Position numbers and translations under genes: made by a program
Notes under the pieces: model-generated
What the model was told of the DNA's origin: nothing
Seen by the model: only the letters and a program-made list of their open reading frames with translations
Database searches by the model: none
NCBI GenBank assembly: GCA_029258925.1
Contig: JAPDJV010000004.1
Coordinates: forward strand, 21,277 to 85,276
Length of the DNA: 64,000 nt
DNA from: Thermoproteota archaeon
GTDB lineage: Archaea; Thermoproteota; Thermoprotei_A; EX4484-217-1; JAPDJV01
Direction of reading: 5' to 3'
Part shown: positions 6,873 through 64,000 of the stretch, one piece after another
Numbering within the stretch: the first letter of the stretch is position 1
Layout of the letters: every line of letters begins with the position of its first letter

Positions 6873-7832
6873 TTAATTTTCTTTTAATCCTATGCTTTCA
6901 AGGAATATTTTCGGATTCAGCTCTCCCGCCTGAATTGTTGCACCTGTTTCAACGTGTACGACTGCTATTTTAGCTGGAGCAAACAGCCCCGGATCGATTT
7001 TATAGAAGTCTCCGCCAGCTTCCTCGAATATTTTAGAGAATGGCTTACCGTAGGAGGGAGAATTCAGTGAAGGTGTTTTCTCAACTATTTTCTTAAGCTT
7101 ATAGAAATTCTCGTATGATATGTAGTAGTATGCTTCACCCATGTAGAGCTGTGCATCATTTGTTCTACCCATGGCCTCGACGAATCTGGGGTGTCCCGGG
7201 GCAACTGGTGCTCTCCCTATGCCGGATACGAAGGAGTTTAATGGGAGGCCTAGAGTGTGCATTTTATGTATGCCTGTCTCAACTATTCTAGCACTTATTT
7301 GAACGCTTCCAGAAATACTCCGAGTCGGAGTTACTATCATGTATAGTCCTTCAGGGGAGACGCCCGTGCTATTGCAAAGGTATTCAACCACTTCCTCACT
7401 GGGTAATTCAAGAGATTCTAAAACTATCACTGTCTCGCTGCTCTCATCAGCATAGTTTAGTTCGTCGAACAAATGCTTCGGTTTCTGGGAGAGTGCTCTA
7501 GCTGGACCGCTTCCCATAGCAAAATATTTCCCAACTCTTATAGACCAGCCAGCGTACTGGCTTGCCATGCAGGCTATTGGAGGATTGTCTGTTGAAACAG
7601 TTACGTATGGTATGATCTTACCCTCTAAATCGCCCAGTGTAACAGATACTTTGCCAAGTCCTCCCATGCAGACTTCGGCTACAAGTCTTCCCGCCTCTAA
7701 TCCGCCTCTAGCTCTCACTCCAGCATCTATGACTGTCGCACCCCTAATCTTCAACACATCTACTCGGAGCCTCCTAGCGTTGTCTAAGATTTTAGATATG
7801 ATCTCCATTGCAAGCCTGTTAACACTTACCAT
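6873..7832 (-). CDS. mch: Methenyl-tetrahydromethanopterin cyclohydrolase
   Basis: Mch-like VDAGVRARGGLEAGRLVAEVCMGGLGKV, SQYAGWSIRVGKYFAMGSGPARAL, IGRAPVAPGHPRFVEAMGRTNDAQLY. Confidence 0.9.
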   Translation of the reverse strand: MVSVNRLAMEIISKILDNARRLRVDVLKIRGATVIDAGVRARGGLEAGRLVAEVCMGGLGKVSVTLGDLEGKIIPYVTVSTDNPPIACMASQYAGWSIRVGKYFAMGSGPARALSQKPKHLFDELNYADESSETVIVLESLELPSEEVVEYLCNSTGVSPEGLYMIVTPTRSISGSVQISARIVETGIHKMHTLGLPLNSFVSGIGRAPVAPGHPRFVEAMGRTNDAQLYMGEAYYYISYENFYKLKKIVEKTPSLNSPSYGKPFSKIFEEAGGDFYKIDPGLFAPAKIAVVHVETGATIQAGELNPKIFLESIGLKEN

Positions 7833-8683
7833 GCTTCTACACCACCTACTTCAAGTAATTCTGCCAATTCTTCAAGATACTTGTTTAAGTCTAGGTTTAA
7901 GTACAGTCTCCCCCTACCACCAACAACGCTGTCTCCTATCAACAACAATATTCTACCGGTTACAGCCCATTTCCCCACTTTCCCCTTACTTAAAACGCTG
8001 TCAGGGTGGAAGCTTGGAAGAATTCTTGGAACAACTCCCCCAATAACTATTTTACCTTTAACCATTCTTGCACCTGGCAATCCATTGCAGCCCCCTCTAA
8101 TAAATATTGATCCACCGATCATAGAGTATCCTGGCATTATCCCGGAGGATCCCTCGACAATTATTCTGCCCCCACTCATGCCCTCCCCTATGTAGGATCC
8201 AGCACTTCCATGTACTATGATCTCTCCTCCACTCATACCCTTACCGGGCTTCTCGCCTGGAAGCTTTGACCCTAAATGGTCGCCTGCATTCCCGAAAACC
8301 TCTATAATGCCGTCTTTCATCTTTGACCCAAGCCAGGAGTCCGCGTTTCCCCTAACAATCATCATCCCGCCTTTCATCTTGTATCCTAGGAAGCAACCTG
8401 CTTCTCCCTCAATAATTATTCTACCCTCACTCATCTTGTAGCCAACATACCTGATCTTATTACTGCTATCGATAATGAGTTCGACAGTGTCCTCGGGTTC
8501 AGGGCTACAGGAGACCTCGAATATTTCTCCTAACCTCAGCCTTGAATTCCCTTCCCAGACAGGTAGTTCGAGTATCTCCTTAATGCTCTTTCCCTTGATA
8601 TTATCTGGGCTCATACTTCTCGCGTCAACTGGTACGTGGAATTCCTTCTTGGGTTGAATAAAGTATCTTGGCATGTACCGCAC
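7826..8683 (-). CDS. fwdC: Formylmethanofuran dehydrogenase subunit C
   Basis: Repeated beta-helix units (GxxMKGGMMIVRGNADSWLGSKMKDGIIEVFGNAGDHLGSK) as in FwdC/GltS C-terminal domains; next to fwdA. Confidence 0.9.
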   Translation of the reverse strand: MRYMPRYFIQPKKEFHVPVDARSMSPDNIKGKSIKEILELPVWEGNSRLRLGEIFEVSCSPEPEDTVELIIDSSNKIRYVGYKMSEGRIIIEGEAGCFLGYKMKGGMMIVRGNADSWLGSKMKDGIIEVFGNAGDHLGSKLPGEKPGKGMSGGEIIVHGSAGSYIGEGMSGGRIIVEGSSGIMPGYSMIGGSIFIRGGCNGLPGARMVKGKIVIGGVVPRILPSFHPDSVLSKGKVGKWAVTGRILLLIGDSVVGGRGRLYLNLDLNKYLEELAELLEVGGVEAW

Positions 8684-8686
8684 CTT

Positions 8687-10399
8687 TCATAAGAGTGTTT
8701 TCACGGGAATCTCCCTAGGCTTCCTGATCTCGCTGAGATCTACGATGAAGTTTGAGTACTGAATTGAATAGTAGTATGGAAACATTTCCCTCACTTTATC
8801 AACAATAGTTTTAGACAGGTCTTCCGGGATCTCCGGTTTAACGTAGAGTGTCGAACCATAAGTTTCCTCTACTACTCTCCCCCCTCTAACAACTATTCTC
8901 CCGTCTTTGAAGACGTATTCTGCTCTCGATAAGGCTTTTTCAACGATCTTCCAGTCTCTCGAGGGATCCACTTTCCCCGGGTCGATATTGTATATTGCTA
9001 TGTCTGCTTGAGCCCCTATCCCCAGATGCCCCTTGAAGTCTTCTAATCCCAAAAGCTTTGCTGGTGCAGCCCTTGTTGCTATAATTATGTCGTTGAAATC
9101 GAATTCCTCGTCTACTGCTGGTAGAGCAGTTTTCTTAAGAGCCCTCCTATTAACCTTCTTCATCTCCTCTTCTCTAGCACGCCTACTCATAAGCCACGCT
9201 ATGACTCTAGGATACTTAGTGAATGGCCCTGCGTTCGGATGGTCTGTTGTAATAAATGTTCTCCAAGGATCTTTCGTCAACAATGCTACTTCTAAACCTA
9301 TAGTCCACTGAACAGTGTTAACATAGTTCCTTCTCCTATACCTGTAGGGGACTATTCCGGAAGCAGTTTCTGCTTCAACGTCTGCGAAAGCCCACTTCCA
9401 CCTAGATATGTGGAATAATACGTGTTCGAAGGGGGCATCTGCCGTCATTGTTGTGACCGAACCGAATATTATTTGACCCAGATCCACGCTGGCATTCCTC
9501 TGCCTCCTCAAAATCCTAGCTATTTCCTCTCCCCCGCTTCCAAGAGTTGCCCAAGTACTCCCCTTGTACCCCGTGAACTGGACGTGAGTTATGTGCATGG
9601 ATATCTTGTTTCCCGTAGAGTACTTGGAGGATAATTCTAGTGTTCTAGTTGTTGTCGAATAGTTGCCGGGATAGCCCAGTCTATTGCAGTGGACATGTAT
9701 TGGGTGTGGCAGGTTTAGCAGGGTGCTTGCCTCCCCGAGCATCAATATTATTTCTCTAGGCGTCAAATTGTATTCTGGAAGCTGTGTATCCAAGTCTATA
9801 CCATACCCTTTCCCATATAGCCATGCTAGATCTGCTCCCGGGTCAACTATTTTAACTCCGTAACCCTTGGTTGCGTGGAGAAGCCAGGCAATGTAGCCTG
9901 CAAGCCCCTTCAAGTCTCCCTCTGAAATATAGTCTAGTGCGATCCAGTTCGAGTCCATTAATATTAGAGTCATCTTATCGATTATTGGAATAGAATCCAA
10001 CTCCTCATGAGTATGCCTCGTTTTAAGCGGTGGACTAGCTGCCTCAACCACTGTCGTGTAGCCTAGGCGAGCATAACCGTAGCCTATTTTATACACGTTT
10101 GGAACAGTTCTCCCCGTCTGAGACCTTAGACCCATTTTCCCGGGGATGTTAGTGAGGTAGTGGTCTTCTACCATCATAACTCTGCCAGTGTTGACTTTGG
10201 GTCCAGCAATATGCGAGTGTACATCTATTCCTCCAGGAACGACCATCATTCCCCTTGCATCTACTACAATAGTCTCCCTGGGGTCTAGGGATGATGGGTC
10301 AACTATTACCCCGTTCCTTAACCCTATATCAATTACCTCTCCCTCGACACCGTTTAGGGGATCGTAGACTATTCCCCCTTTTATCAGGAAACTCTTCAA
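8687..10399 (-). CDS. fwdA: Formylmethanofuran dehydrogenase subunit A (amidohydrolase fold)
   Basis: GGIDVHSHIAGPKVNTGRVM, HPIHVHCNRLGYPGNY, HITHVQFTGYKGS, FITTDHPNAGPFTKYPRVIAWLMSRRAR. Confidence 0.92.
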   Translation of the reverse strand: MKSFLIKGGIVYDPLNGVEGEVIDIGLRNGVIVDPSSLDPRETIVVDARGMMVVPGGIDVHSHIAGPKVNTGRVMMVEDHYLTNIPGKMGLRSQTGRTVPNVYKIGYGYARLGYTTVVEAASPPLKTRHTHEELDSIPIIDKMTLILMDSNWIALDYISEGDLKGLAGYIAWLLHATKGYGVKIVDPGADLAWLYGKGYGIDLDTQLPEYNLTPREIILMLGEASTLLNLPHPIHVHCNRLGYPGNYSTTTRTLELSSKYSTGNKISMHITHVQFTGYKGSTWATLGSGGEEIARILRRQRNASVDLGQIIFGSVTTMTADAPFEHVLFHISRWKWAFADVEAETASGIVPYRYRRRNYVNTVQWTIGLEVALLTKDPWRTFITTDHPNAGPFTKYPRVIAWLMSRRAREEEMKKVNRRALKKTALPAVDEEFDFNDIIIATRAAPAKLLGLEDFKGHLGIGAQADIAIYNIDPGKVDPSRDWKIVEKALSRAEYVFKDGRIVVRGGRVVEETYGSTLYVKPEIPEDLSKTIVDKVREMFPYYYSIQYSNFIVDLSEIRKPREIPVKTLL

Positions 10400-10400
10400 A

Positions 10401-12185
10401 TTACTCCCCCCTAAGCCTCCTGACTCTGCTGAGTATTTCCAGTAGTATTCGGTGGTCTTCCATTACGCCTGTCGGCGGCTCGATGATTTTCTTAACTCTG
10501 AGGGGAACCCCGTCCATTCTATACGCTGTTCCCCCAGCTTCTACGCCGCTCATAGCTGAGGGTATGACAACATCTGCTATCATAGCTGTTAGACTCCACT
10601 TGGGGTCGACGACTATTAATGGGATTTTCGAGAGGTTTTCAACTGCTTTCCGGGGGAAGTGGGCTACTGGATCGCTTGCAATTATCAATGCTGCATCAAC
10701 ATCTCCCCTGATCAACGCGTCCGTTGCTGTTGTGAGGCCCGGTATGAATTTCGGTATCCCCCTCATGAAGTCCACGCTAAACGGGTATCCTGTTAACCAG
10801 GTTGAAACTTGACATGCCCCTGTAACATTGTAGTGTCCCCTCATAGGTACGACTGTGAACCTCGTCCAATCGTTTAAGTCGTGGGCAAGCTTGATTAACT
10901 CCTCTAGGCTCCTGTACCTGGGCTCGTTCATCGTGAGACCCATGCCGAAGAACCCTACGCCGTACTTGCAACTTCTAAGAGCATCGGCTAGCTCGTATAT
11001 TTTCTCCCTTGGAACCCCTGCTACGGTGGATTGCTCTATATCTAGGTCTTTGACGGCCATTCTCAGAGCAGTTATGAGCTCGTAGTCTTTGCCGGGCTCA
11101 ACCATTATGAATTCGTCTGCCATCCTAGCTGTAGCAGTTCTCCTAACATCTATGACTATAACTCTTCTATCCTTCCTCCCCTTAACATGCTTCCCGCCCT
11201 CGATAACCCATCTCTTAAAGTGGTTTGGGTGGGCCTCGGCTGGATTACATCCCCAGAACAATATTAGGTCTGCTAGATGCCTCACTAATCCTAGGGTGCA
11301 TCTCGCTGCACCGGCTTCCATAACGCCTATTGTCGTTGGGCCATGGCAGACAACAGTAGTGTTATCTATTATTGCACCAAGGTATTCGGCCAACTCCACT
11401 CCAACAATTATTGCCTCGTTGACTGTTGAACTTAAACCGAATATTAATGGATGTTTTGATGAAGCAAGTATTTCAGCTGCCTTATCCAGTGCCTTGGGAA
11501 GCGTGCATTCTTCTAGGAGGCCGCTGGGACTCCTAATGTATGGTTTAACTATTCTATCCCTATGGTAATTTCTTATCTTGGATGAGCCCAGCGGGCATGC
11601 TCCCACAACTTTTTCAACAATGTTACCGTTGAGGTGTACTTTGATGAAGTCGCACAGGTCTCCGCAGAAGGGGCAGACGAAGTCTTCTATAATCTTCTTC
11701 TCGCCCTCCCTTAAATCTAGTTCAACAGGGTGTGCATCAACTCTCCTACCAGTTATTATACTGACTAGCTCCTCCACGCTGGGGACTTGTTCCTCTGTTG
11801 GCCTTACTTTAGCTGGGATATTCTTGTACTTCGGCATTCCCGTTCCATCTGTTAGTGGGCAGACCACGGCGTTTGCCCATGGACCCATTGGGATAAAACC
11901 TGTGCCTCTAGGTAGACCTGGATCAATTGAAACGTTGACTACTATAGCACCATGTTCTGTTTCAACTCTCACCCTACTATTCTTCTCGACACCTATTAAC
12001 TGGGCGTCTTCAGGGTTTAAGCTGAGTGTTGAAGCTGAAAGCCTGTACCTCCTACTCCTCTTTCCCTCAGCTTCCATGCTCATTCCTTGAACTAGACTCC
12101 TCCCCGTCACCAGCAATATTTCTAGCTGGCGCCTCTCCCCAAGCTTCTCTTCAAGCGCCTCCTGCACGATGCTCGTTGAAGTCAA
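10401..12185 (-). CDS. fwdDB: Formylmethanofuran dehydrogenase FwdD-FwdB fusion (N-terminal D-type molybdopterin-dinucleotide-binding domain, C-terminal B catalytic domain)
   Basis: The N-terminal ~150 aa (LLVTGRSLVQGMSMEAEGK...LNPEDAQLIGVEKNSRVRVETEHG...GTGFIPMGPWANAVV) match FwdD. The rest (CPFCGDLCDFIKV...TVVCHGPTTIGVMEAGAAR...WGCNPAEAHPNHFKRW) matches FwdB. Confidence 0.9.
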   Translation of the reverse strand: MTSTSIVQEALEEKLGERRQLEILLVTGRSLVQGMSMEAEGKRSRRYRLSASTLSLNPEDAQLIGVEKNSRVRVETEHGAIVVNVSIDPGLPRGTGFIPMGPWANAVVCPLTDGTGMPKYKNIPAKVRPTEEQVPSVEELVSIITGRRVDAHPVELDLREGEKKIIEDFVCPFCGDLCDFIKVHLNGNIVEKVVGACPLGSSKIRNYHRDRIVKPYIRSPSGLLEECTLPKALDKAAEILASSKHPLIFGLSSTVNEAIIVGVELAEYLGAIIDNTTVVCHGPTTIGVMEAGAARCTLGLVRHLADLILFWGCNPAEAHPNHFKRWVIEGGKHVKGRKDRRVIVIDVRRTATARMADEFIMVEPGKDYELITALRMAVKDLDIEQSTVAGVPREKIYELADALRSCKYGVGFFGMGLTMNEPRYRSLEELIKLAHDLNDWTRFTVVPMRGHYNVTGACQVSTWLTGYPFSVDFMRGIPKFIPGLTTATDALIRGDVDAALIIASDPVAHFPRKAVENLSKIPLIVVDPKWSLTAMIADVVIPSAMSGVEAGGTAYRMDGVPLRVKKIIEPPTGVMEDHRILLEILSRVRRLRGE

Positions 12186-12187
12186 TA

Positions 12188-13036
12188 TTATGGTCGCCTC
12201 GGCTTCTCCAAGAGCTTTTCCTTAACGAGTATTGTCCCGTCGGAGTGGTGCGGTTTTCTCTCCAACGTGTCACCGTATTTCTCTATCTCTCTTGCTTCAT
12301 CAGCTAGTCTAGCCGCTACTCTCATGGCTTCGTGTGCTGCTGCAACGATTAAAGTGTACTTCTCCCTCTCCTTTACCTTGAAGCATCCCTCCGTTGTTAA
12401 ATCGGCTACTCTTCTTGCAATCTCGTATGCTGCCATTGCTTTAGCTCTAGCATACGGGTTTCTGAATCCCGCTCTCTCAACAACCCACTTGTCCACAACG
12501 ATCTTCGGTAAGACAGGTTTCTCCCCCTTCTTAAGTGCTTCAACAACCTTATCTATTTCCTCATATAGTAGTCTGAATACCCCCGTTATAGATAACACTT
12601 TTATGATGTCGCTGTTGTACAGTGCCATTTCAACTGGGTCGAGAAACTCTCTTCTAGCACCTATCATTGAGTCGCCTAACACTATTATGTAACCGAACCC
12701 CCTTTCCTCCAAGTCCCCCACTATCTTCTTCGTAGGCGCGTCTGAGATCACTATTACAGGTTTGCCTGCTGCAAGCAATATTTCCCTCGCTCTCGTTGGC
12801 CCGGGTAGTGTTGCATTAGGGCTTACGACAATGTATAAGTCGTGGTCTCCTCCCAGAGCCCTGTTTGCAACTTCTTCTCCATAGGTTTCGGAGAACATTT
12901 TCGCGCCTGTTGAATAAACTCTCACTTCAATATCTTTTCTATCGGCTCTCTCATCTAAGAGATATTCTATTAGGACTGCTGATCCTATTGCACCCATTTT
13001 AACTACTCCAATACTTATGGGTTTTACTTCACCCAA
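12188..13036 (-). CDS. mtd: F420-dependent methylene-H4MPT dehydrogenase
   Basis: IGVVKMGAIGSAVLIEYLLDERADRKDIEVRVYSTGAKM...VVSPNATLPGPTRAREIL...GDSMIGARREFLDPVEMALYN resembles Mtd. Confidence 0.9.
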   Translation of the reverse strand: MGEVKPISIGVVKMGAIGSAVLIEYLLDERADRKDIEVRVYSTGAKMFSETYGEEVANRALGGDHDLYIVVSPNATLPGPTRAREILLAAGKPVIVISDAPTKKIVGDLEERGFGYIIVLGDSMIGARREFLDPVEMALYNSDIIKVLSITGVFRLLYEEIDKVVEALKKGEKPVLPKIVVDKWVVERAGFRNPYARAKAMAAYEIARRVADLTTEGCFKVKEREKYTLIVAAAHEAMRVAARLADEAREIEKYGDTLERKPHHSDGTILVKEKLLEKPRRP

Positions 13037-13086
13037 CCATTTCCACCTCCAAACACCATTACCATAATTACGTGAAGCACGGGAAA

Positions 13087-14013
13087 TTACGGGTTGAATC
13101 CTTTTTCAAGAGCAAGCTTGATTGCATCCTTCAAGTAGATCTTATATGGGCCGAGGCTTCCCCCATAATTGCCTGCATCTATCTTCACTATTCCAGGCAC
13201 CTTGGAGGCTTCTATAGCTGCAACACCCATCGCTAAAGCGACGCTCTTAAGATTTAAACCATTTATTACAATCTCGTATACGCAGTTCACGTTCTCCGGG
13301 ATCTTAGTCTCCTCGACAATATCTCTTATTGTTGGACAATAATAATGGTTTGTTGTTGCACGGAGCTTGGGGTACTTTATGCTTCCAACCTTAGAGCCCG
13401 ATCTAACTATGCCTCCCGGGAAAGGTGTTATTACATGCCTACAGTTTTCACGTATTGCTTTTACTGCTCTCTCAGCTGCTTCAAGCCCCGAATCCAAGCT
13501 TTCAGCGAGAATTAGTATATTTCCTCCGGCAACACCCTTAACAACCCCGAACACATCCTCTATTATGAACTCTCCCTCCATTACCGGTATTCTCCAAATA
13601 GTCCTACCATTAAGAACATCCTTTTTCTCGAATCCATCTCCAAATTTAGCTAAAGCTCTCCCAACATGTATTTTCCTCTTAACCCTTGGAAGACCATCCC
13701 ATGCTGCAGTTGTTGGACAAGTGAGTATTGTTTGCCCAACTCTAAGAGTCACCTGGCCTTTGAGCTCGGGAACACCTAGATGATAGATTTGTATGAGTGC
13801 TCCAATCCTCCCATCCGGAGTCTTCTCCCCCGGCACAATTCTTTCAATCCCTGCCTCAGCTGGACTCATTATAATAGAAGTTGCAAAACCTGTTGCAACG
13901 CTTGCAGCCGTCAGAGCCCACTTTTCATTTCTGGCTGTAACAAGTATTCTGGTTGCATACATGGGGAATGCCTCGGCAAAAGTATCCTCAATAATCACGT
14001 TATTAATTTTCAA
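13087..14013 (-). CDS. ftr: Formylmethanofuran:H4MPT formyltransferase
   Basis: Ftr-like IIEDTFAEAFPMYATRILVTA...GFATSIIMSPAEAGIE...TCPTTAAWDG...GYGGSLGPYKIYLKD-type C terminus. Confidence 0.9.
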   Translation of the reverse strand: MKINNVIIEDTFAEAFPMYATRILVTARNEKWALTAASVATGFATSIIMSPAEAGIERIVPGEKTPDGRIGALIQIYHLGVPELKGQVTLRVGQTILTCPTTAAWDGLPRVKRKIHVGRALAKFGDGFEKKDVLNGRTIWRIPVMEGEFIIEDVFGVVKGVAGGNILILAESLDSGLEAAERAVKAIRENCRHVITPFPGGIVRSGSKVGSIKYPKLRATTNHYYCPTIRDIVEETKIPENVNCVYEIVINGLNLKSVALAMGVAAIEASKVPGIVKIDAGNYGGSLGPYKIYLKDAIKLALEKGFNP

Positions 14014-39030: not shown

Positions 39031-40500
39031 CTACTTACATAATACTTCTTCTGGGGGAATCCCCCTCTGCTTTAACCATTTCGGCATGAGCTTCTTCTCT
39101 ACTTCCTCGTCTACTTCAGGTGCTTTCTCCACCAGGTATTCTGCTAGCGATTTACTCATGTTTATTGCGCCGTAGACTCCGTCGAATACTATCACTTTAT
39201 CAGTCTTCCCTATCTTATATGCGAACTCCATAGCTGTTTCGAGGTCCTCTGCTATTACAGCGTGCTTCATGAACTCTATGTTCTGTGGGTCACGGTTGTA
39301 CACGTCTGCCTGCTCCTTTGTTACAACTATTACTGGAAACATCTTCGACCAGAACACGCTTGGATATCCTCCCCAAGCATAGTTTATTACTATAACCTTT
39401 ATTGCAGGGTTCACTGGTGGAACCTCTGGGATCAAAGGTCTGTCTTTTTCATCGTAGTATGCTTCAGTATACCATGTGTATGGTGGTAGGGGGTTGTCTA
39501 AGTCGAATAAGTCTATGTTTAGGCCCGTGAAGTTAGCGAATATTACTCCACCCGAAAACGTGTATGGTATTGGCGTTCTATAGTCTAAGACGACTATGCA
39601 TTCGTCTATTTTACTCAGCAGCCTCATGACTTTTCCATAGTATCTCAGGTTATCTACTATTATCCTACGATCCAGTCTATCGAGATCGTTATCGGCGTAA
39701 ACTCCTAGTATACCTACTGGTGAAGCTCTTAGGAATACTGAGAAAGCCCACTTGTCCTGAACGAACTTCGAGTTGAATATTGCTCTTGCAACGAAGTTTG
39801 CTCCCCTTGGTCCAAGATTATGGTGGTACGCTGATCTTGTTTCAAGTCTAGCGTACGACATGCCGAATGGTTTAAATGCTCTATCCACATGTCTATGGAA
39901 ATGTACTTCTCTCACATCAGTGTTATGTGCATGCACTATTTTATCCGCATCATAAGCTGCTCTGAGACCATAGAATGTTCCGATCTCGGTCTCTATGGGT
40001 ACTCCCGGATCCAAGGGTGAAATTCCATACGCTTTCCCATTGAAGTATTCGTCCAACTTGAACCTCTTAATATATTCCTCGGACTCTCTATGTCTTAACC
40101 CTACGCCGACCTTCAACCTTATGTTTGTAACTCCAGTTTTACGTTCGATGACGTCCTTTATCGTCTTGAGCATTTCAGCGTATGGTTCTCCTCCAAGAAT
40201 GGTGAAGCCGTGGTGTGATCCGAGTATGTTCACTGAGCGTGCTCCTTTAATTGGAGACATATCGACGTTTTCCAAGGCCTCCTCGGTAGCGTCTCTAATA
40301 GCTTTTGGATTAGGTGGAGGCCATAATGGTTTAGGTATGTCTGGGAAGAGTTCAGATATCTTAATGGAAACCATGTTAGGTAGCTCGGATGCACGTTTCT
40401 TGACGTATTTTGGGTCCACCCCATATATTGAGGGAGCTGGTGGTAATGGAGCTATGGGGGGGCCTATTACTCTACTTTTATCGATTTTATATTGAGGCAT
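39031..40500 (-). CDS. Uncharacterised 489-aa protein, possibly distantly LarA-like (DUF2088); His-rich putative metal site
   Basis: VGVGLRHRESEEYIKRF and ADKIVHAHNTDVREVHFHRHVDRAFKPFGMSYARLETRSAYHHN resemble LarA regions only loosely. 16-nt gap to the ferredoxin gene upstream. Confidence 0.5.
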   Translation of the reverse strand: MPQYKIDKSRVIGPPIAPLPPAPSIYGVDPKYVKKRASELPNMVSIKISELFPDIPKPLWPPPNPKAIRDATEEALENVDMSPIKGARSVNILGSHHGFTILGGEPYAEMLKTIKDVIERKTGVTNIRLKVGVGLRHRESEEYIKRFKLDEYFNGKAYGISPLDPGVPIETEIGTFYGLRAAYDADKIVHAHNTDVREVHFHRHVDRAFKPFGMSYARLETRSAYHHNLGPRGANFVARAIFNSKFVQDKWAFSVFLRASPVGILGVYADNDLDRLDRRIIVDNLRYYGKVMRLLSKIDECIVVLDYRTPIPYTFSGGVIFANFTGLNIDLFDLDNPLPPYTWYTEAYYDEKDRPLIPEVPPVNPAIKVIVINYAWGGYPSVFWSKMFPVIVVTKEQADVYNRDPQNIEFMKHAVIAEDLETAMEFAYKIGKTDKVIVFDGVYGAINMSKSLAEYLVEKAPEVDEEVEKKLMPKWLKQRGIPPEEVLCK

Positions 40501-40516
40501 TCAGGATCCCCCACAC

Positions 40517-41110
40517 CTAAACTTTTGCTTCTCCTCTAGTTAACTTCTTCAATAACATTTCATCCTCGTCGAAGTAGAATCCTCTAGCCCTATACTTCTC
40601 CCTAACCTTTTTTGGTATCTCGAACACTGTTGGACAGATACCGTACCATGCATGTCTACCTGGCTTGGGTTTAGGCTCAATGCCTACTGCTCTGAGCAAC
40701 CTGAGTATTGGCTGGATACACTCCACTTTACACCCAGTCCTAACGCCGGTCATTCTAGATATTTCCTCAGGAGTCTTGGCTCCTAAGATTATTGCTGCAG
40801 CAACCTCTTTAGCCCTGGTTCCAGTACAGAAGCATATTATCTGCTCCGGGTGGAAGCCAGCATTCCTACATATTTCCTCAACTTTCTTAAAGTCTACCTT
40901 GCTCACGTCGACCCTTACAATTTTTGGTTCTGGTAGGCGCTCCATTGTTATAGCGTAGTTCGGACATCTCTCATAGCATGCTCCACAACCCATGCAAGTA
41001 TTTGGGTCTATCTTTGGGTATTCACCTGGCGTCCAAGATATTGCCTCCGTGGGACAAATGGACCAGCACAAACCGCACTTTACGCATTTCGAGTAATCTG
41101 TTTTAGCCAT
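40517..41110 (-). CDS. 2x[4Fe-4S] ferredoxin with C-terminal BFD-like [2Fe-2S] domain
   Basis: CVKCGLCWSICPTEAI...CMGCGACYERCPNYAI; C-terminal IICFCTGTRAKEVAAAIILGAKTPEEISRMTGVRTGCKVEC. Confidence 0.8.
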   Translation of the reverse strand: MAKTDYSKCVKCGLCWSICPTEAISWTPGEYPKIDPNTCMGCGACYERCPNYAITMERLPEPKIVRVDVSKVDFKKVEEICRNAGFHPEQIICFCTGTRAKEVAAAIILGAKTPEEISRMTGVRTGCKVECIQPILRLLRAVGIEPKPKPGRHAWYGICPTVFEIPKKVREKYRARGFYFDEDEMLLKKLTRGEAKV

Positions 41111-56119: not shown

Positions 56120-57163
56120 TTAGGGTGAGTGCTTCAGGAATGTTTTGCTCTTAAATATTATCTCATTTGTCACATCAACAGTTTTCGCTGTTCCCCCAAT
56201 GTCCTGAGGCAATACTTTGCCCTCCTCCACCGCTCTTACTATAGCACTGTTTATAGCCCTCGACAACTTCTTCAATTTTTCATCAGAATATTTTTCTCCA
56301 AGCCACTCTAACATTAGGGCTGCAGCCCTGATTTCACCTATTGGATTAGCTATTCCCTTCCCAGCAATCGATTTCGCTGTCCCGTGGACAGGTTCAAAAG
56401 CAGCATAGTTCTCCCCTATCTGGGCTGAACCACATAACCCTAAGCCTCCAACTAATCCGGCGACGAGGTCTGAGAGTATGTCACCGTATAGGTTCGGTGT
56501 TACGATGACATCGAATATTTGAGGTCTTTTAACGAGCTTGTATGCTGCAGCGTCAACGATCACTTCATCGTGCTCTATGTCTCCGTATTCCCGTGCTATT
56601 TCGAAAAATATGTTCCTGAATAGTCCATCAGACTCTTTCAGAATGTTCGCTTTATGTACTACTGTGACTTTCCTCCTTCCAAGTTTTCTAGCTAAATCGA
56701 AAGCAAACCTAACGATTCTCTCAGTAGCGCTCCTCGTTATAATACGGTAGCTAATAGCCTTGTCGTCAAACCTCTCCTCAACACCTGAATAAGCCCCCTC
56801 AGTGTTTTCTCTAACAATTATTACGTCGAGTTCTCTCAGGGAAACGTTTTTGAAGCTCTTGAAAGGCCTCACGTTAGCGTAGAGTCCGAGAGTTTTCCTC
56901 AAATATACGTTCACACTCCTATAAGTCCCAGGTCCCACGGGAGTTGTTACAGGTCCCTTGATCAATGCATCCGTGCTTCTTATCTTATCTAGTGCATCGT
57001 CCTCTATCGGCTTACCTGTCTCCTCATAGTATTTCCATCCGGCATCTATCTTAATGTACTCAGCGTCGAATCCGAGTTCTCCCAGTAGTCTTAGAGCTTC
57101 GGATACTATTTCAGGGCCTACTCCATCTCCCTCTATCACAGCTATCCTGTACTTTCTTCCCAT
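56120..57163 (-). CDS. Isocitrate/isopropylmalate dehydrogenase family; isocitrate-dehydrogenase-like substrate loop
   Basis: IAVIEGDGVGPEIVSEALRLL; GTYRSVNVYLRKTLGLYANVRP (SxNxxLR pattern); VTPNLYGDILSDLVAGLVGGLG. Confidence 0.88.
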   Translation of the reverse strand: MGRKYRIAVIEGDGVGPEIVSEALRLLGELGFDAEYIKIDAGWKYYEETGKPIEDDALDKIRSTDALIKGPVTTPVGPGTYRSVNVYLRKTLGLYANVRPFKSFKNVSLRELDVIIVRENTEGAYSGVEERFDDKAISYRIITRSATERIVRFAFDLARKLGRRKVTVVHKANILKESDGLFRNIFFEIAREYGDIEHDEVIVDAAAYKLVKRPQIFDVIVTPNLYGDILSDLVAGLVGGLGLCGSAQIGENYAAFEPVHGTAKSIAGKGIANPIGEIRAAALMLEWLGEKYSDEKLKKLSRAINSAIVRAVEEGKVLPQDIGGTAKTVDVTNEIIFKSKTFLKHSP

Positions 57164-57657
57164 GGGAAGACACCATGCCTCCTATAGTACTCGACTACCC
57201 CTCCCTCCAGAACTATCCTCATTATTTTAGGGGGGTAAGGTTTGAACTTGAATGATAGGTTTCTGGTAATATTCCTTATAATGCCCCCCTCTAAGCTAAC
57301 CTCAATAATGTCCCCCTCGAAGGTTTTCTCGTATACCTCGGGGGCTATTATTACTGGGAGACCTATGTTAATGGAGTTCCTGAAGAATATTCTTGCAAAA
57401 GATTTTGCGATAACTGCCCCGATACCTGCGATCTTCAGGAGGCGGGGAGCATGCTCCCTACTTGAACCACAGCCGAAGTTTCTTCCAGCAACAATGATAT
57501 CTCCCTTGCCCACTTTTTCCGGGAACTCCGGGTTAAGGTCTATTAGAACGTATTTAACCAGTTCCTCCAGATTCTGGGTTTTGAACTTGTATCTTCCCGG
57601 GATAATATTATCTGTATTCACGTTGTCTCCGAACTTCCATACGCGGCCTCTAATCAT
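57142..57657 (-). CDS. 3-isopropylmalate dehydratase/aconitase-type small (swivel) subunit
   Basis: GRVWKFGDNVNTDNIIPGRYK; AGRNFGCGSSREHAPRLLKIAGIGAVIAKSFARIFFRNSINIGLPVI. Confidence 0.93.
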   Translation of the reverse strand: MIRGRVWKFGDNVNTDNIIPGRYKFKTQNLEELVKYVLIDLNPEFPEKVGKGDIIVAGRNFGCGSSREHAPRLLKIAGIGAVIAKSFARIFFRNSINIGLPVIIAPEVYEKTFEGDIIEVSLEGGIIRNITRNLSFKFKPYPPKIMRIVLEGGVVEYYRRHGVFPWEESTG

Positions 57658-57661
57658 TTTT

Positions 57662-58924
57662 TCACCTCAAATACTTTCTCGGATCAGCTATTCTCCCCTC
57701 AATTGCTGAAGCCGCTGCTGTGAGAGGGGAAGCCAAGTATACTTCACTTTTCCTATCACCCATTCTCCCCTGGAAGTTCCTGTTAGATGTGGAAACAGCT
57801 ACTTCCCCCGGTCCAAGAACACCCATGTGTGCCCCAACACACGGGCCACATGTAGGCGGCCCGACCACGAATCCTGCTTTCAAAAATATTTCTAAAACAC
57901 CTGTCTCTAAGAGCTTGTAGTATACTTCTCTCGATGCAGGTATTGCTATGCAACGAGTATTCTCGTTAACTCTTCTCCCCTTCAAAATTCTCGCTGCAAC
58001 GTAGAAGTCCTCGAATCTGCCGTTAGTGCAGGACCCTATGAACACTTGGTCGACTTCCACCCCCTCCACTTCACTTATTGACTTCACATTGTCAACGTTG
58101 TGTGGTGCAGCAATTTTCGGCTCCAACTTCCCGGCTTCAACGTGGAATTCGTCGACATATTCTGCGTCGGGGTCGGGTGTTACGGGTTTAATCGGCGACT
58201 TGACTCTGTTTTTAAGCCATTCAACAGTTTTCTCGTCCACGGGTACTAGACCCGTTTTTGCACCCATTTCTACAACCATGTTTGTGAGAGTCATACGGGA
58301 TTCGACACTTAGTTCCCTAATAGTGTCTCCGTGGAACTCTACAGCCATGTAGTTTGCACCATCACTTCCAAGACACCCAATAATGTGGAGTATTACGTCT
58401 TTAGACAGTACTCCCTTGGGAAGGCTTCCATCGACGACTATCTTAAGAGTTTCCGGGACACGTAGCCATATTTTACCGGTCATCATGGCTATTGTGGCAT
58501 CGGTGCTTCCTACACCAGTAGCGAATGCTCCGAAGGCACCGTGTGTTGTTGTATGTGAGTCGGCTCCCACTACTATCATACCCGTGTTCACGTGGCCTTT
58601 CTCAGGTATGATTTGATGGCATATTCCCGTCCCTATATCGTATAATTTTATTCCATGCTTCTCAGCGAACCTTCTCATCTCCTCGTGAACAATGGACATT
58701 CCAACCGATGGACTGGGTGCTGCATGGTCTATGATGAAGACTATTTTACTCGGGTCGAAAACTTTCTCGCAGCTAAACTCGTCTCTCATAACTTCTATGG
58801 CCAGTAGAGCTGTTCCATCATGTGCGAAGACTAGGTCTACGGGGGCTATGGTGAATTCTCCTGCAACTAGATTGCGATTAGAGGCTTTGCTTAGAATTTT
58901 CTCGGCCATCGTCATTCCAGCCAT
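57662..58924 (-). CDS. 3-isopropylmalate dehydratase/aconitase-type large subunit
   Basis: [98 protein letters not shown]. Confidence 0.93.
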   Translation of the reverse strand: [420 protein letters not shown]

Positions 58925-60262
58925 CTAAATTAAACCCCTCAAATGCCTTGGCAACTTGTCTCTGTATTTTTCGAGGATTTCGGGCACGTGTTTCTTGAGT
59001 AATGTGATCATTTCTCTATCAGTTATGGGGGTGGTTCTGCCAGTCTTGTATATTTCAGTAATTTCATTGTATATCTCGGCTAGTCTTGGATCGTTTTTCA
59101 TGTCCTCCCAGCTACTCGAACCAAACATCGATTTAAGCCAGAAGGCTACTCCAGCTCTCCCAGAGTAGGGTGTTATGGATACTGTGTAGGGTATTCCGAG
59201 GACAGCGTTTGGGTCATAGGATAAGTATACTTGAGGATTCTTGAGGAGGCCATCTATGTGTATTCCAGCCTTAGTCCTGAAAGCGTTTGCCCCAAGTATT
59301 GGCTGGAATTCAGGTATTTCGAAACCTATTTCCTCGAAGAACTCCTTTATCTTCTTCAATACCTTCAAATTCATCCCCCCAGTAGTTCCCTTAAGTTGAA
59401 CGTAGAATAATGCCATTGCTTCAAGGGGACAGTTCCCTGCTCTCTCACCCATACCTAGGAGTGTACAGTTGGACATTGATGCTCCGGAAATCCATGCTAC
59501 AACATGGTTTGCTACAACCATGTGGAAATCGTTGTGTCCATGGAACTCTATTTTCTCCCCTGGCACACCACCGTCTCTAATTAATGCTTTAACTATTCTA
59601 GGTATGCTCCTGGGGAGGGGGACTTCTTCGAATGGTAGTCCTAGTCCAAGAGTGTCAGCTATCTTCACTTCAACCTCAACCCCATACTTCTCCCCCAAAT
59701 CGAACACTTTATGTATGAAGGGTATTGCCAGACCGTAAATGTCCGCTCTCGTAATGTCTTCTAGAGAAGCTCTAACAGAAATCCCCTTCTTAAGGGCCTC
59801 CTCTATTACTGAAAGATACTTTTCAACTGCTTGACTCCTAGACAACCTGAGCTTGTAGTATATGTGGTAGTCTGAAATAGAGGACAATATTACTGCCTTA
59901 TCTAAACCAGCCTCCTCTACTAGTTTTAAGTCGCTGAAAGTTGCTCTGATCCAGGCTATTGGTTTAGGGTAATCGTATCCCAGCTCCTTTACCCGGCGAA
60001 CAACCTCCCTATCCTTATCAGTGTAGAGGAAGAATTCACAAGACTTTATAATACCGCTTCCAGCGTCAAGCTCATTTAATAGCTGATATACTTTAACTGC
60101 CTCCTCGATTTTCAGAGGCCTCCATGCCTGCTGGCCGTCTCTCAGAGTAGTGTCGGTGATGTAGAGATTCCACTTTAAAGACTCCATACCGGTTCTTGGT
60201 AGATCGGTGAAGGGGTACAGGTTATTATAGAAAACCTTTTCCTCATCCAAGCATTTCACCAA
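58925..60262 (-). CDS. HMGL-like acyltransferase resembling Re-citrate synthase (homocitrate-synthase-related)
   Basis: ITDTTLRDGQQAWRPLKIEEAVKVYQLLNELDAGSGIIKSCEFFLYTDKDREVVRRVKELGYDYPKPIAWIRATFSDLKLVEEAGLDKAVILSSISDYHIYYKL...EFHGHNDFHMVVANHVVAWISGA, recalled as close to the clostridial Re-citrate synthase pattern. Confidence 0.78.
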   Translation of the reverse strand: MVKCLDEEKVFYNNLYPFTDLPRTGMESLKWNLYITDTTLRDGQQAWRPLKIEEAVKVYQLLNELDAGSGIIKSCEFFLYTDKDREVVRRVKELGYDYPKPIAWIRATFSDLKLVEEAGLDKAVILSSISDYHIYYKLRLSRSQAVEKYLSVIEEALKKGISVRASLEDITRADIYGLAIPFIHKVFDLGEKYGVEVEVKIADTLGLGLPFEEVPLPRSIPRIVKALIRDGGVPGEKIEFHGHNDFHMVVANHVVAWISGASMSNCTLLGMGERAGNCPLEAMALFYVQLKGTTGGMNLKVLKKIKEFFEEIGFEIPEFQPILGANAFRTKAGIHIDGLLKNPQVYLSYDPNAVLGIPYTVSITPYSGRAGVAFWLKSMFGSSSWEDMKNDPRLAEIYNEITEIYKTGRTTPITDREMITLLKKHVPEILEKYRDKLPRHLRGLI

Positions 60263-60599: not shown

Positions 60600-62600
60600 T
60601 CACCTGTCATGGTCAGCTGGGCAATTATCTAGGCTCCAATATATTACTGGTATGTCCGCTATGTTCACTCCGCTCATGATTCTAGGCATTGCTACGAGAA
60701 TATTGTCGAATGTCGGTCCTCTAATCTTAACCCTATATGGTCTAGGCTTCCCATCGCTAACTGCGTGGAAACATAGTTCTCCCCTAGCGCTCTCAATACA
60801 GTGCAGTGACTCTCCCTCAGGTATGGGGCCGAACGGCGTTATTACTCTACCATTCTTCATCTTCCTCTCAGCTATAGGTCCCCCTGGAATCCTCTCAAGA
60901 CACTCCTCTATTATATTCAAGCTCTCCTCCATCTCCATTCTCCTGCAGAGTGCTCTCGAATAACAGTCTCCCCCCTCACCTACTGCAACGTTGAACTCTA
61001 TTTCATCAAATGCCTCGTAGGGACTTGTCTTCCTCAAATCGAAATCTACTCCGGAACCCCTGATATTCGGGCCTGTCACGTCTAGTCTTATAGCTGTTTC
61101 AGAATCAAGCACACCTATATTCTTAGTTCTCTCTATGAAAACCTGGTTGTTGAAGCATAGGTCGTCGTATACTTTGAGTCTCTTCCTCATGTATTTCAGT
61201 ATCTCCAGTGCTCTGCTCTTGAAGTCTTCAGGCATATCCCTCCTAACTCCCCCCGGAATATTGTATATATGGTATATTCTTGCACCCGTAAGCTTCTCGA
61301 GGAGGTACAATATCTTCTCCCTGTCCCCCCAAGCTATTTTCATCACTGTTCTGAAGCCTGTAGCGCTCGCTAGGAAACCTAGGTTTAATAGGTGGCTTTG
61401 GATCCTGCTTAGCTCACCCTGTATGGTTCTCAAGTATGATGCTCTCCTTGGAACATTTATCCCAGCTATTTTCTCAACGGCTCCAATGTAGGCTAGCTCG
61501 TAGCTTGCTCCATCTAGAACACATACTCTCTGAACTATCATGATGTTCTGCCACCAAGTCCTGTACTCCATTAGCTTCTCGAACCCTCTATGCAGATACC
61601 CCGGGTTTGGCTTTGCCTCTAAAACCTTCTCCCCGTCAACTCTCAATATTATGTCGAAGTTCCCCGAGGCCGGGTGGCATGGTCCGAATGGTAGAACTAT
61701 TTCTCCTGGACCAGCCTCCTCTTTCAACGGGGGGACTTCGAGGAGTCCTCCCTCCTTATTCACTTTCTCCTCTTTGCCAGTGTAGCCGCTTTGAACGGCG
61801 AACATGGCTTCAACTATTGCAAGACCTATGGGTTCAGGTCTAGGTGGACATCCTGCTATCCATACATCGACCGGAATATACTTGTCCAAGTTCTTTATTG
61901 TATTGTAGCTGTCCCAATATGTTCCACCTGTCATAGGGCAGTTTCCGAGGGCTAGGACGAATTTAGGCCAAGCCATTTGCTGATATACTCTTATTATCCT
62001 CCTAAGAGTCTTAACAGTCACGTATCCTCCAACAATTAACACATCTGCATGCCTAGGAGACCCGACAGCTATGAGCCCGAATCTCTCCATGTCGAACCCG
62101 CTGCTAACCCATGGAACAGCCTCTATGAAGCAACATCCCGTCATATAGTTTAGAACCCACAGGCTCCTAGATCTACCCCAATCCACAATACTCTTTATCT
62201 TAGGCGGGGAGGGCATTTCCAGAGCAGGCTTCTCCCCCAGCTTATCGGGGGGATACAGCAGTTCTTTTTTGTCGAATACCACTAGGAACGGGAAGTTCGT
62301 GAACGTTAATGCCTTACTCGGGCACACGTCTACGCATAAACCGCAGAAGCAACATTTAGAATAGTCTATTTGAGGGTGGAAAACCTTCTTACCATCCCTC
62401 TCCCTCTCAACCATTACTATAGCATTGTTTGGACATATTCTTTCGCACAGCCTGCAACTCCTACACTTGTCTTCATCGAAGAAGTGTCTGCCCCTGAACC
62501 CCTCGGTCAACAGCATTTCAGGCGGGAACATGAATGTTATGGGCTTGCTCTTCAAAAGGCCGCTAATGGCCTTAATAGGTTTAACTATGTTCTCAAACAT
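60600..62600 (-). CDS. NuoI-NuoB-NuoD-like triple fusion (8Fe ferredoxin + small subunit + large subunit of group-4 hydrogenase/complex I family)
   Basis: CRSCRLCERICPNNAI...CCFCGLCVDVCPSKAL; then YMTGCCFIEAVPWVSSGFDMERFGLIAVGSPRHADVLIVGGYVTVK...LGNCPMTGG...WIAGCPPRPE; then GPCHPASGNFDIILRVDGEKVLEAKPNPGYLHRGFEKLMEYRTWWQNIMIVQRVC. Confidence 0.9.
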   Translation of the reverse strand: MFENIVKPIKAISGLLKSKPITFMFPPEMLLTEGFRGRHFFDEDKCRSCRLCERICPNNAIVMVERERDGKKVFHPQIDYSKCCFCGLCVDVCPSKALTFTNFPFLVVFDKKELLYPPDKLGEKPALEMPSPPKIKSIVDWGRSRSLWVLNYMTGCCFIEAVPWVSSGFDMERFGLIAVGSPRHADVLIVGGYVTVKTLRRIIRVYQQMAWPKFVLALGNCPMTGGTYWDSYNTIKNLDKYIPVDVWIAGCPPRPEPIGLAIVEAMFAVQSGYTGKEEKVNKEGGLLEVPPLKEEAGPGEIVLPFGPCHPASGNFDIILRVDGEKVLEAKPNPGYLHRGFEKLMEYRTWWQNIMIVQRVCVLDGASYELAYIGAVEKIAGINVPRRASYLRTIQGELSRIQSHLLNLGFLASATGFRTVMKIAWGDREKILYLLEKLTGARIYHIYNIPGGVRRDMPEDFKSRALEILKYMRKRLKVYDDLCFNNQVFIERTKNIGVLDSETAIRLDVTGPNIRGSGVDFDLRKTSPYEAFDEIEFNVAVGEGGDCYSRALCRRMEMEESLNIIEECLERIPGGPIAERKMKNGRVITPFGPIPEGESLHCIESARGELCFHAVSDGKPRPYRVKIRGPTFDNILVAMPRIMSGVNIADIPVIYWSLDNCPADHDR

Positions 62601-62611
62601 TCACGACACCC

Positions 62612-63085
62612 CTAAACACCGTAAACCTCCCTCACATACTTTCTCGAATCAAAGTCTTTCCTGAAGGGGGGAGGCCCACTCCACTCTTCTAAGAGGAGCG
62701 GTTTGAGCATGTTATTCCATTCAAAAACTATTCCAAACATTTCCCAACACTCTCTCTCATGCATTAAACTGTTCTCCCAGATCTCACCCAGACTCTCAAT
62801 AACCGGTTTTTCTCTATCCAAGCTTGTTGAAACCTTAACGTATAGTGAATCCTTCAATCTGTGCGCTATGAAATATACCTCGAAAACGCCTTTCTCAATC
62901 CAGTCCACTGCTGAAATTGTCAGAAGCCTTGTGAAGCCGTTCTCCTTGAGGTATCTTGCTGCACCAAGGTACTTCTCTCTTCCAACTTCAGCGAAAACGG
63001 TGTTTTCCCTTAGAATGCATTTTGCCCCAAATTTCTCGGATAATTCTTTAATTAAGGAGTCGAGATTGTTAGACATATTTAACAC
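62612..63085 (-). CDS. NuoC-like (30-kDa/EchD-type) subunit
   Basis: LTISAVDWIEKGVFEVYFIAHRLKDSLYVKVSTSLDREKPVIESLGEIWENSLMHERECWEMFGIVFEWNNMLKPLLLEEWSGPPPFRKDF. Confidence 0.87.
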   Translation of the reverse strand: MLNMSNNLDSLIKELSEKFGAKCILRENTVFAEVGREKYLGAARYLKENGFTRLLTISAVDWIEKGVFEVYFIAHRLKDSLYVKVSTSLDREKPVIESLGEIWENSLMHERECWEMFGIVFEWNNMLKPLLLEEWSGPPPFRKDFDSRKYVREVYGV

Positions 63086-63254: not shown

Positions 63255-63836
63255 GTGGTGAGCGGCATGGTTTTAACACCACTACATTATCCACAAGCCT
63301 ACTTCTTCTACAAGCTCGGTGAGAAGAAGTTCAGTTTCCCAGGTCTCCTGGTAGGCAGTTTCCTACCCGACATAGAGATACCGGTGCTCATCCTATTAGG
63401 TTGCAACTACCCGTATTGTAGACTTGTTCTACATAGTTTCCTGGGATCCCTCATGTTCTCTTGGATAATAGGGTTAGCCGTGCTACCATTATACAAGTTT
63501 TTCTTAAAATCGTTCTTAAAGTATCGGCGCGAGATTAAAGTGGACATGTTAGCTTACATCGTATCCGTTGAAATATCCTCCCTAACACACGTATTCGTTG
63601 ATGGAATGCATCACTCATACAATCCACTACTATGGCCATTCACCAGCGAGAGCATAAACATTCTCATACCATTCGGGAACAGGTTTGCCACACACATAAT
63701 ATTGCATATCATATTCTTTGCTTTAACAGCGATTATAATCTTCGTTGAATTAAGTAGGAAGAGAGTGGTTCAAGGATTGAATTTGGAGTCTCTTAGGAGA
63801 AGTATAGTGGTACTGCTAACGTTGGACGATAATTAA
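63255..63836 (+). CDS. Multi-pass membrane protein, DUF4184-like / metal-dependent hydrolase-like
   Basis: LTPLHYPQAYFFYKLGEKKFSFPGLLVGSFLPDIEIPVL and HSFLGSLMFSWIIGLAVLPLY; conserved HxxxP/DxE/H residues. Confidence 0.65.
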   Translation: MVSGMVLTPLHYPQAYFFYKLGEKKFSFPGLLVGSFLPDIEIPVLILLGCNYPYCRLVLHSFLGSLMFSWIIGLAVLPLYKFFLKSFLKYRREIKVDMLAYIVSVEISSLTHVFVDGMHHSYNPLLWPFTSESINILIPFGNRFATHIILHIIFFALTAIIIFVELSRKRVVQGLNLESLRRSIVVLLTLDDN

Positions 63837-63884: not shown

Positions 63885-64000
63885 CAATTTATATTGTATT
63901 GGACACGGTTAGGTTCATCACGGTCTCCGCTGAGCCGCCTACGGGAGCCTTTTTAGCTCCCCTCGGGAACCCAGCGGTCACCAATAAACTCTTAGAGCTT
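63885..64000 (+). ncRNA. Putative structured RNA gene, cut by the window end (unclassified)
   Basis: TATA-like TTTATATT near 63886; GC-rich segment with nested perfect complements CCGCTG (63927-63932)/CAGCGG (63972-63977) and GGGAGC (63943-63948)/GCTCCC (63956-63961); no ORF. Confidence 0.35.

Follow-up and report, generated by a model that had tools for sequence, protein, structure and literature searches.

Complex I is regarded as the product of combining exchangeable modules, namely a hydrogenase-like head and Mrp-like pumps. A two-gene locus in the window, the 64,000-nucleotide stretch of Thermoproteota DNA analysed here, encodes head subunits of this kind, three of them joined in one chain. 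This raises the question of which electron donor and acceptor such a head serves, and on which membrane arm, if any, it works.

The NuoI-NuoB-NuoD chain and its distribution

Both genes lie on the minus strand at window positions 60600-63085, with the following features.

62612..63085, minus strand: NuoC-like subunit of 157 aa with a GTG start, which opens the two-gene unit
60600..62600, minus strand: NuoI-NuoB-NuoD fusion, 666 aa, a single ATG-to-stop ORF
62202..62600, minus strand: NuoI domain (aa about 1-133) with an N-terminal amphipathic helix and two [4Fe-4S] motifs, from NuoI profiles
61779..62201, minus strand: NuoB domain (aa about 134-274), from alignment to 6u8y_J and NdhK and from the B-domain tree
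60600..61700, minus strand: NuoD domain (aa about 301-666), a large subunit of the type of membrane-bound sulfane reductase (MBS), in which only C360 and C660 are kept

The initial annotation described an orphan NuoC preceding a single I-B-D chain, and this was confirmed as an intact ORF with NuoC upstream across a gap of 11 bp, an arrangement in which NuoC adjoins the fusion in all complete relatives examined. Pfam and NCBIfam profiles named all parts (Complex1_30kDa, 2.9e-25, for the NuoC-like subunit; Complex1_49kDa, 3.9e-78, Oxidored_q6, 5.9e-20, and Fer4 for the fusion chain). The top PDB sequence matches of the C, B and D parts were chains of Pyrococcus furiosus MBS, with 6u8y_K, the MBS K subunit, matching the NuoC-like protein.

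The flanks held no antiporter or NuoH genes, as had been noted from the sequence, and this is borne out within the available flanks, of which the one upstream of NuoC is short because contig C6 stops 0.9 kb away, at window base 64000 (C6:85276). No NuoE, NuoF or NuoG genes were seen in the neighbourhood of the head. Upstream of NuoC lies a divergent YdjM-like gene (63255-63836). The fusion is followed directly, on its own strand, by a chain-elongation cluster of the isopropylmalate/homoaconitase type (56120-60262, minus strand) comprising a homocitrate-synthase-like protein, large and small hydratase subunits and a dehydrogenase, whose products could be 2-oxosuberate-type thiol cofactors or amino acids.

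The I-B-D fusion was found in 19 further genomes from Asgard archaea, Bathyarchaeia/Hecatellales and Thermoproteota. A contig scan recovered it at full length, with 57-73% identity, in Baldrarchaeota, Hecatellales, Bathyarchaeota, Jordarchaeum, Heimdallarchaeota, Lokiarchaeia and one Thermoproteota MAG, and whole-genome searches placed it in 13 of the 227 Asgard-phylum genomes (one of these copies being cut by a contig end), in 4 of the 256 genomes of the Hecatellales class, and within the window's own order. Seventeen complete copies, each from a different genome, carry the full-length chain without interruption. This settles the doubt over an indel that the initial annotation had raised and rules out an assembly or frameshift artefact; one additional copy (L020/L097) carries an in-frame stop. 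The dN/dS values between close fusion pairs ranged from 0.035 to 0.195, and the fusion is under purifying selection. The orphan state in several lineages might suggest a remnant head, kept by chance or decaying after loss of its arm. However, this already disfavoured explanation is highly improbable in view of the dN/dS values, the retention of all cluster cysteines and the intact frames of the 17 copies. A recent foreign origin was rejected on composition, as GC and GC3 lie within about 1.2 s.d. of the window genes. In open-access full text we found no published I-B-D fusion; the Nuo fusions already known are CD and BCD, not IBD (PMC12361115).

Large-subunit branch and small-subunit cluster site

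The fusion retains all 12 cluster-ligand cysteines. Eight belong to the I domain, which has two CxxCxxCxxxCP motifs (Cys 46-56 and 83-93), and four to the B domain, where the tandem C156 and C157, with C221 and C251, make up the full ligand set for the proximal [4Fe-4S] cluster. The NuoD domain reads RVCVLD (C360) and SLDNCPADHDR (C660) at the positions where group-4 [NiFe] hydrogenases carry the Ni ligands RxCGxC and DPCxxC. The initial reading of one cysteine per pair was exact, and alignment does not restore the missing ones, ruling out an intact [NiFe] site masked by misalignment. The equivalents of the quinone-binding Nqo4 H38 and Y87 are Asn and Val (GPCHPASGNF, RVCVLD), whereas C360 and C660 align with C85 and C385 of MbsL. 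An AlphaFold2 model of the fusion (pLDDT 85.7, pTM 0.88) matched complex I 49-kDa chains through its NuoD domain (Z about 49), and this domain aligned with MbsL (6u8y_L) at a TM of 0.91 of target and 41% identity. Foldseek and VIA matches span only the D domain well, so that the I and B folds were judged by sequence alone. An extra cysteine, C308 (61670-61700, minus strand), lies in a loop of the active-site chamber, giving GPCHP as compared with GPQHP in nearly all relatives; it is also present in the orphan of the Bathyarchaeia genome G599.

In a tree of 85 large subunits (IQ-TREE PMSF), the fused proteins formed a single clade (100/100), which together with the MBS-type subunits (98/95) and the subunits of unfused orphan B-C-D-I clusters (98/95) made up a larger clade (98/96), apart from Nuo/Fpo and from the hydrogenases. 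The sister group of the fused clade is unsettled, since a grouping of fused and orphan proteins was not rejected (p-AU 0.59). A Nuo/Fpo-type quinone reductase was rejected, as both the quinone ligands and the clade mismatch. The one-cysteine-per-pair pattern occurs in all members of the larger clade except the fused L155 (genome G283), which has lost both cysteines (RINVLD/DNAPADHDR) and kept the fold motifs; the C360/C660-type cysteines are therefore not essential to the family. In P. furiosus MBS, C85 and C385 are present and the double mutant stayed active (PMC7684303), and the trait is thus probably not the catalytic feature. The initial annotation had called this active site intermediate between NiFe-hydrogenase and Nuo/Fpo. 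Its account of the cysteines holds, but the state is already known from MBS, with which the fusion groups; what is new is a single-chain MBS-branch head with a complex I-type motif and varied arm pairing.

That motif lies in the small subunit. Every fused member in the small-subunit tree has GCCFIEA with tandem CC (TGCCFIEA in the window protein), and neither the MBS-type CxxC motif (CTGCGGIE) nor the hydrogenase motif CNxCD is present; in the unfused orphans the corresponding motif is NSCGF, which has just one cysteine. In MBS the proximal cluster is held by three Cys, C25 being no ligand, and the open iron has been proposed for sulfur chemistry (PMC7684303). The corresponding cluster of the fused family is probably fully ligated, beside an MBS-type large subunit without quinone ligands. 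As read from these motifs, the unusual site of the fusion lies in the small subunit, where the tandem CC of complex I occurs within an MBS-type clade; owing to this departure from the open-iron site, the activity of MBS is not simply transferable to the fused family. We found no published report of an MBS-type large subunit combined with a complex I-type cluster motif, and because it combines the two, the fusion can be used to test which residues set the electron acceptor.

The head can thus be compared with several known systems. With the K, N, J and L subunits of P. furiosus MBS (Mbx; 6u8y; PMC7684303), it shares the large-subunit clade, the two retained cysteines, the loss of Ni and quinone ligands and, presumably, a ferredoxin-fed three-cluster wire, but it has I, B and D in one chain and tandem CC where MBS has CxxCG, and the window genome co-encodes no Mrp-type arm. 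The unfused orphan clusters of genomes G135, G136, G156 and kin and of G599 are likewise MBS-branch and arm-less, with the same large-subunit cysteine pattern, but consist of four separate genes (B-C-D-I) and have the single cysteine of NSCGF. The complex I Q-module and Fpo have the same subunits B, C, D and I, the same D fold and the tandem CC of NuoB, whereas the fusion lacks the quinone His/Tyr and an arm and falls in a different clade. Group-4 [NiFe] hydrogenases with a complex I-like arm (Asgard archaea, PMC11291895; contig C3 of the window genome) have the arm type used by the Lokiarchaeia fused head, but they keep four Ni cysteines and CNxCDIE, and constitute a separate paralogue.

Membrane arms in the window genome and its relatives

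The window genome is 98.4% complete, and genome-wide statements rest on profile searches. On contig C3 these located a single NuoH and a single set of antiporter subunits, encoded together with separate hydrogenase B, C, D and I genes, which have full RICGIC and DPCFAC motifs, in one operon. With this hydrogenase head and the fusion, the genome has two large subunits for one NuoH. An arm is therefore encoded elsewhere and the fusion does recur, which goes halfway towards the refutation that the initial annotation had set out, but the arm has a hydrogenase head of its own. The surplus of NuoD-type subunits over NuoH was exactly one in the window genome and in G001, G127, G135, G288, G300 and G599, and the surplus subunit is the orphan head in each of these except G001, which has four large subunits and three NuoH.

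Relatives link the fused head to different arms. In two Lokiarchaeia loci (L022/L023), the fused head comes last in an operon A-H-J-J-K-L-M-C-IBD, whose NuoH and NuoD are the only ones found in both assemblies. In G001 (locus L018), a Thermoproteota genome of the window's order, the order is Mrp-type genes-A-H-C-IBD, with the arm directly upstream of NuoC; a divergent hydrogenase B-C-D-I head lies on the other side of the same Mrp-type arm (L093, 5623-17214). An Mrp-type arm and MbsM are co-encoded with the fusion only in the G001/G003 relatives, not in the window genome. In the NuoH tree, the Lokiarchaeia NuoH fell in a hydrogenase-type clade with that of the window genome (support 0.954), and the G001 NuoH grouped with MBS-type NuoH (support 1.0), so that one head family occurs on two arm families. 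That operons pair the fused head with two unrelated arms indicates, for the clade, a head transferable between arms.

Most fused copies and the unfused sister group have no arm adjacent. Orphan fused copies lie inside long contigs, L161 on one of 965 kb and L160 on one of 44 kb, and unfused orphan heads without an adjacent arm were found in the Asgard genomes G135, G136 and G156 and in the Bathyarchaeia genome G599, in which the only NuoH are of Ech/Hyc-like types. The unfused loci with NSCGF are L186 8522-10992 (G135), L168 (G156), L169 (G136) and L163 8789-11170 (G599). A count on the head tree gave a minimum of two changes of arm linkage inside the fused clade; for this reason the orphan state may be the older one.

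One could suppose that the window locus is an ordinary MBS-like complex, its own arm unassembled and split off by the contig end, which coincides with the window end; in the same-order G001 the arm adjoins NuoC on its upstream side. However, the gene directly upstream of NuoC in the window is divergent, in contrast to the same-strand arm genes of G001, and the interior orphans L160 and L161 demonstrate that the orphan state is real elsewhere. We regard this explanation as improbable.

The best explanation overall, in which we place about even confidence, is that the locus encodes a complete ferredoxin-fed peripheral arm of the MBS branch that is transferable between membrane arms. In complex I, the amphipathic helix at the N terminus of the I domain faces the membrane. 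The corresponding helix of the fusion spans residues 2-18 in the AlphaFold2 model (hydrophobic moment 0.52), and is kept in most orphans and shortened in Hecatellales. The loop motifs GP.H..SGNF and PWV.S.FDMERFG are near-invariant in orphan and arm-linked copies alike. In the isolated model, confidence is low at 17-24, 166-169 and 307-313, the counterparts of the NuoH-facing loops of complex I, as would be the case for a structure lacking its partner. Whether the head docks on the hydrogenase arm in the window genome is, in our judgement, evenly balanced. We propose tentatively that one pump serves two interchangeable heads in one cell, a [NiFe] hydrogenase and the fused MBS-branch chain with its complex I-type cluster, differing in the acceptors of ferredoxin electrons. 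Were one pump shared by two heads, these archaea could switch their energy conservation from H2 production to another acceptor and back.

A one-chain head that is found with two unrelated arms, but in most cases with none, would illustrate module exchange in living organisms, among Asgard archaea and their relatives. Its recurrence in about twenty archaeal genomes suggests that the head is pluggable onto different pumps, or that it may work pump-free.

Electron donor, acceptor and metabolic setting

The NuoC and I-B-D proteins very likely constitute a ferredoxin-fed head of the MBS branch, and the initial annotation was judged right in describing the locus as a redox module that is coupled to ferredoxin, is altered in its active site and has no co-encoded membrane arm. 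The FrhB-type F420 subunit (PF04432), which relatives have, gave no match in the window genome. This speaks against an FpoF/FrhB-type subunit as the entry point for F420H2 in the window's organism, and makes ferredoxin the likeliest donor. Reduced ferredoxin would deliver electrons to the two I-domain clusters, from which they would pass to the B-domain tandem-Cys cluster and then to an acceptor in the B/D chamber, predicted from its motifs to have neither a Ni site nor quinone ligands. Kinship with MBS leads us to guess, with some doubt, that this acceptor could be a disulfide or sulfane-type compound. In the window genome, the head would either borrow the arm of the hydrogenase or function as a soluble enzyme.

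As a stand-alone cytosolic oxidoreductase, the protein would transfer electrons from ferredoxin to a soluble disulfide, polysulfide or other compound at an exposed B/D cluster, with no ion pumping. The lack of an arm beside most fused copies and beside the sister orphan clusters of G135, G136, G156 and G599, the surplus of one NuoD over NuoH and the repeated changes of arm linkage are all consistent with this. On the other hand, the amphipathic helix and the NuoH-facing loops are kept, the low confidence of these loops in the isolated model fits a missing partner, and close relatives lie in arm operons. We consider a cytosolic enzyme plausible but doubtful. Of the phrase "soluble or divergently tethered" in the initial annotation, the soluble part is unproven, as Lokiarchaeia and same-order relatives have the head in full-arm operons and the membrane-facing helix is kept.

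In three Asgard genomes (L155/G283, L160/G301 and L161/G300), genes for FdhA (TIGR01591, above cut-off), an FdhB/FrhB-like protein and FlpD lie beside the orphan C-IBD genes in two orientations, suggesting a soluble partner in those genomes. Some Asgard relatives of a cytosolic enzyme might accordingly be fed by the adjoining formate dehydrogenase/FlpD module, which we hold to be conceivable with equal reserve, and a formate-linked head in Asgard archaea is possible. Formate linkage as a general rule was rejected, as FdhA-FdhB-FlpD adjoins the head in three genomes only.

Other genes of the window encode the C1 branch based on tetrahydromethanopterin (Ftr, Mtd, Fwd and Mch), a flavodiiron protein and a protein resembling aldehyde:ferredoxin oxidoreductase; on contig C38, as read from sequence, there is an HdrA-like/FlpD/Mvh-type hydrogenase cluster. 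These genes point to an anaerobic metabolism rich in ferredoxin, and a second route for discharging the reduced carrier would make sense there. A 489-aa ORF (39031-40500, minus strand), with no match in Pfam (1e-5) or NCBIfam (1e-20), adjoins a protein with 2x[4Fe-4S] and a BFD-like [2Fe-2S] domain (40517-41110). A second fusion was observed in the formylmethanofuran dehydrogenase, where FwdD (aa 23-141) and FwdB (aa 169-588) are joined in one chain (10401-12185, minus strand) inside a complete Ftr-Mtd-FwdDB-FwdA-FwdC-Mch cluster (13087..6873).
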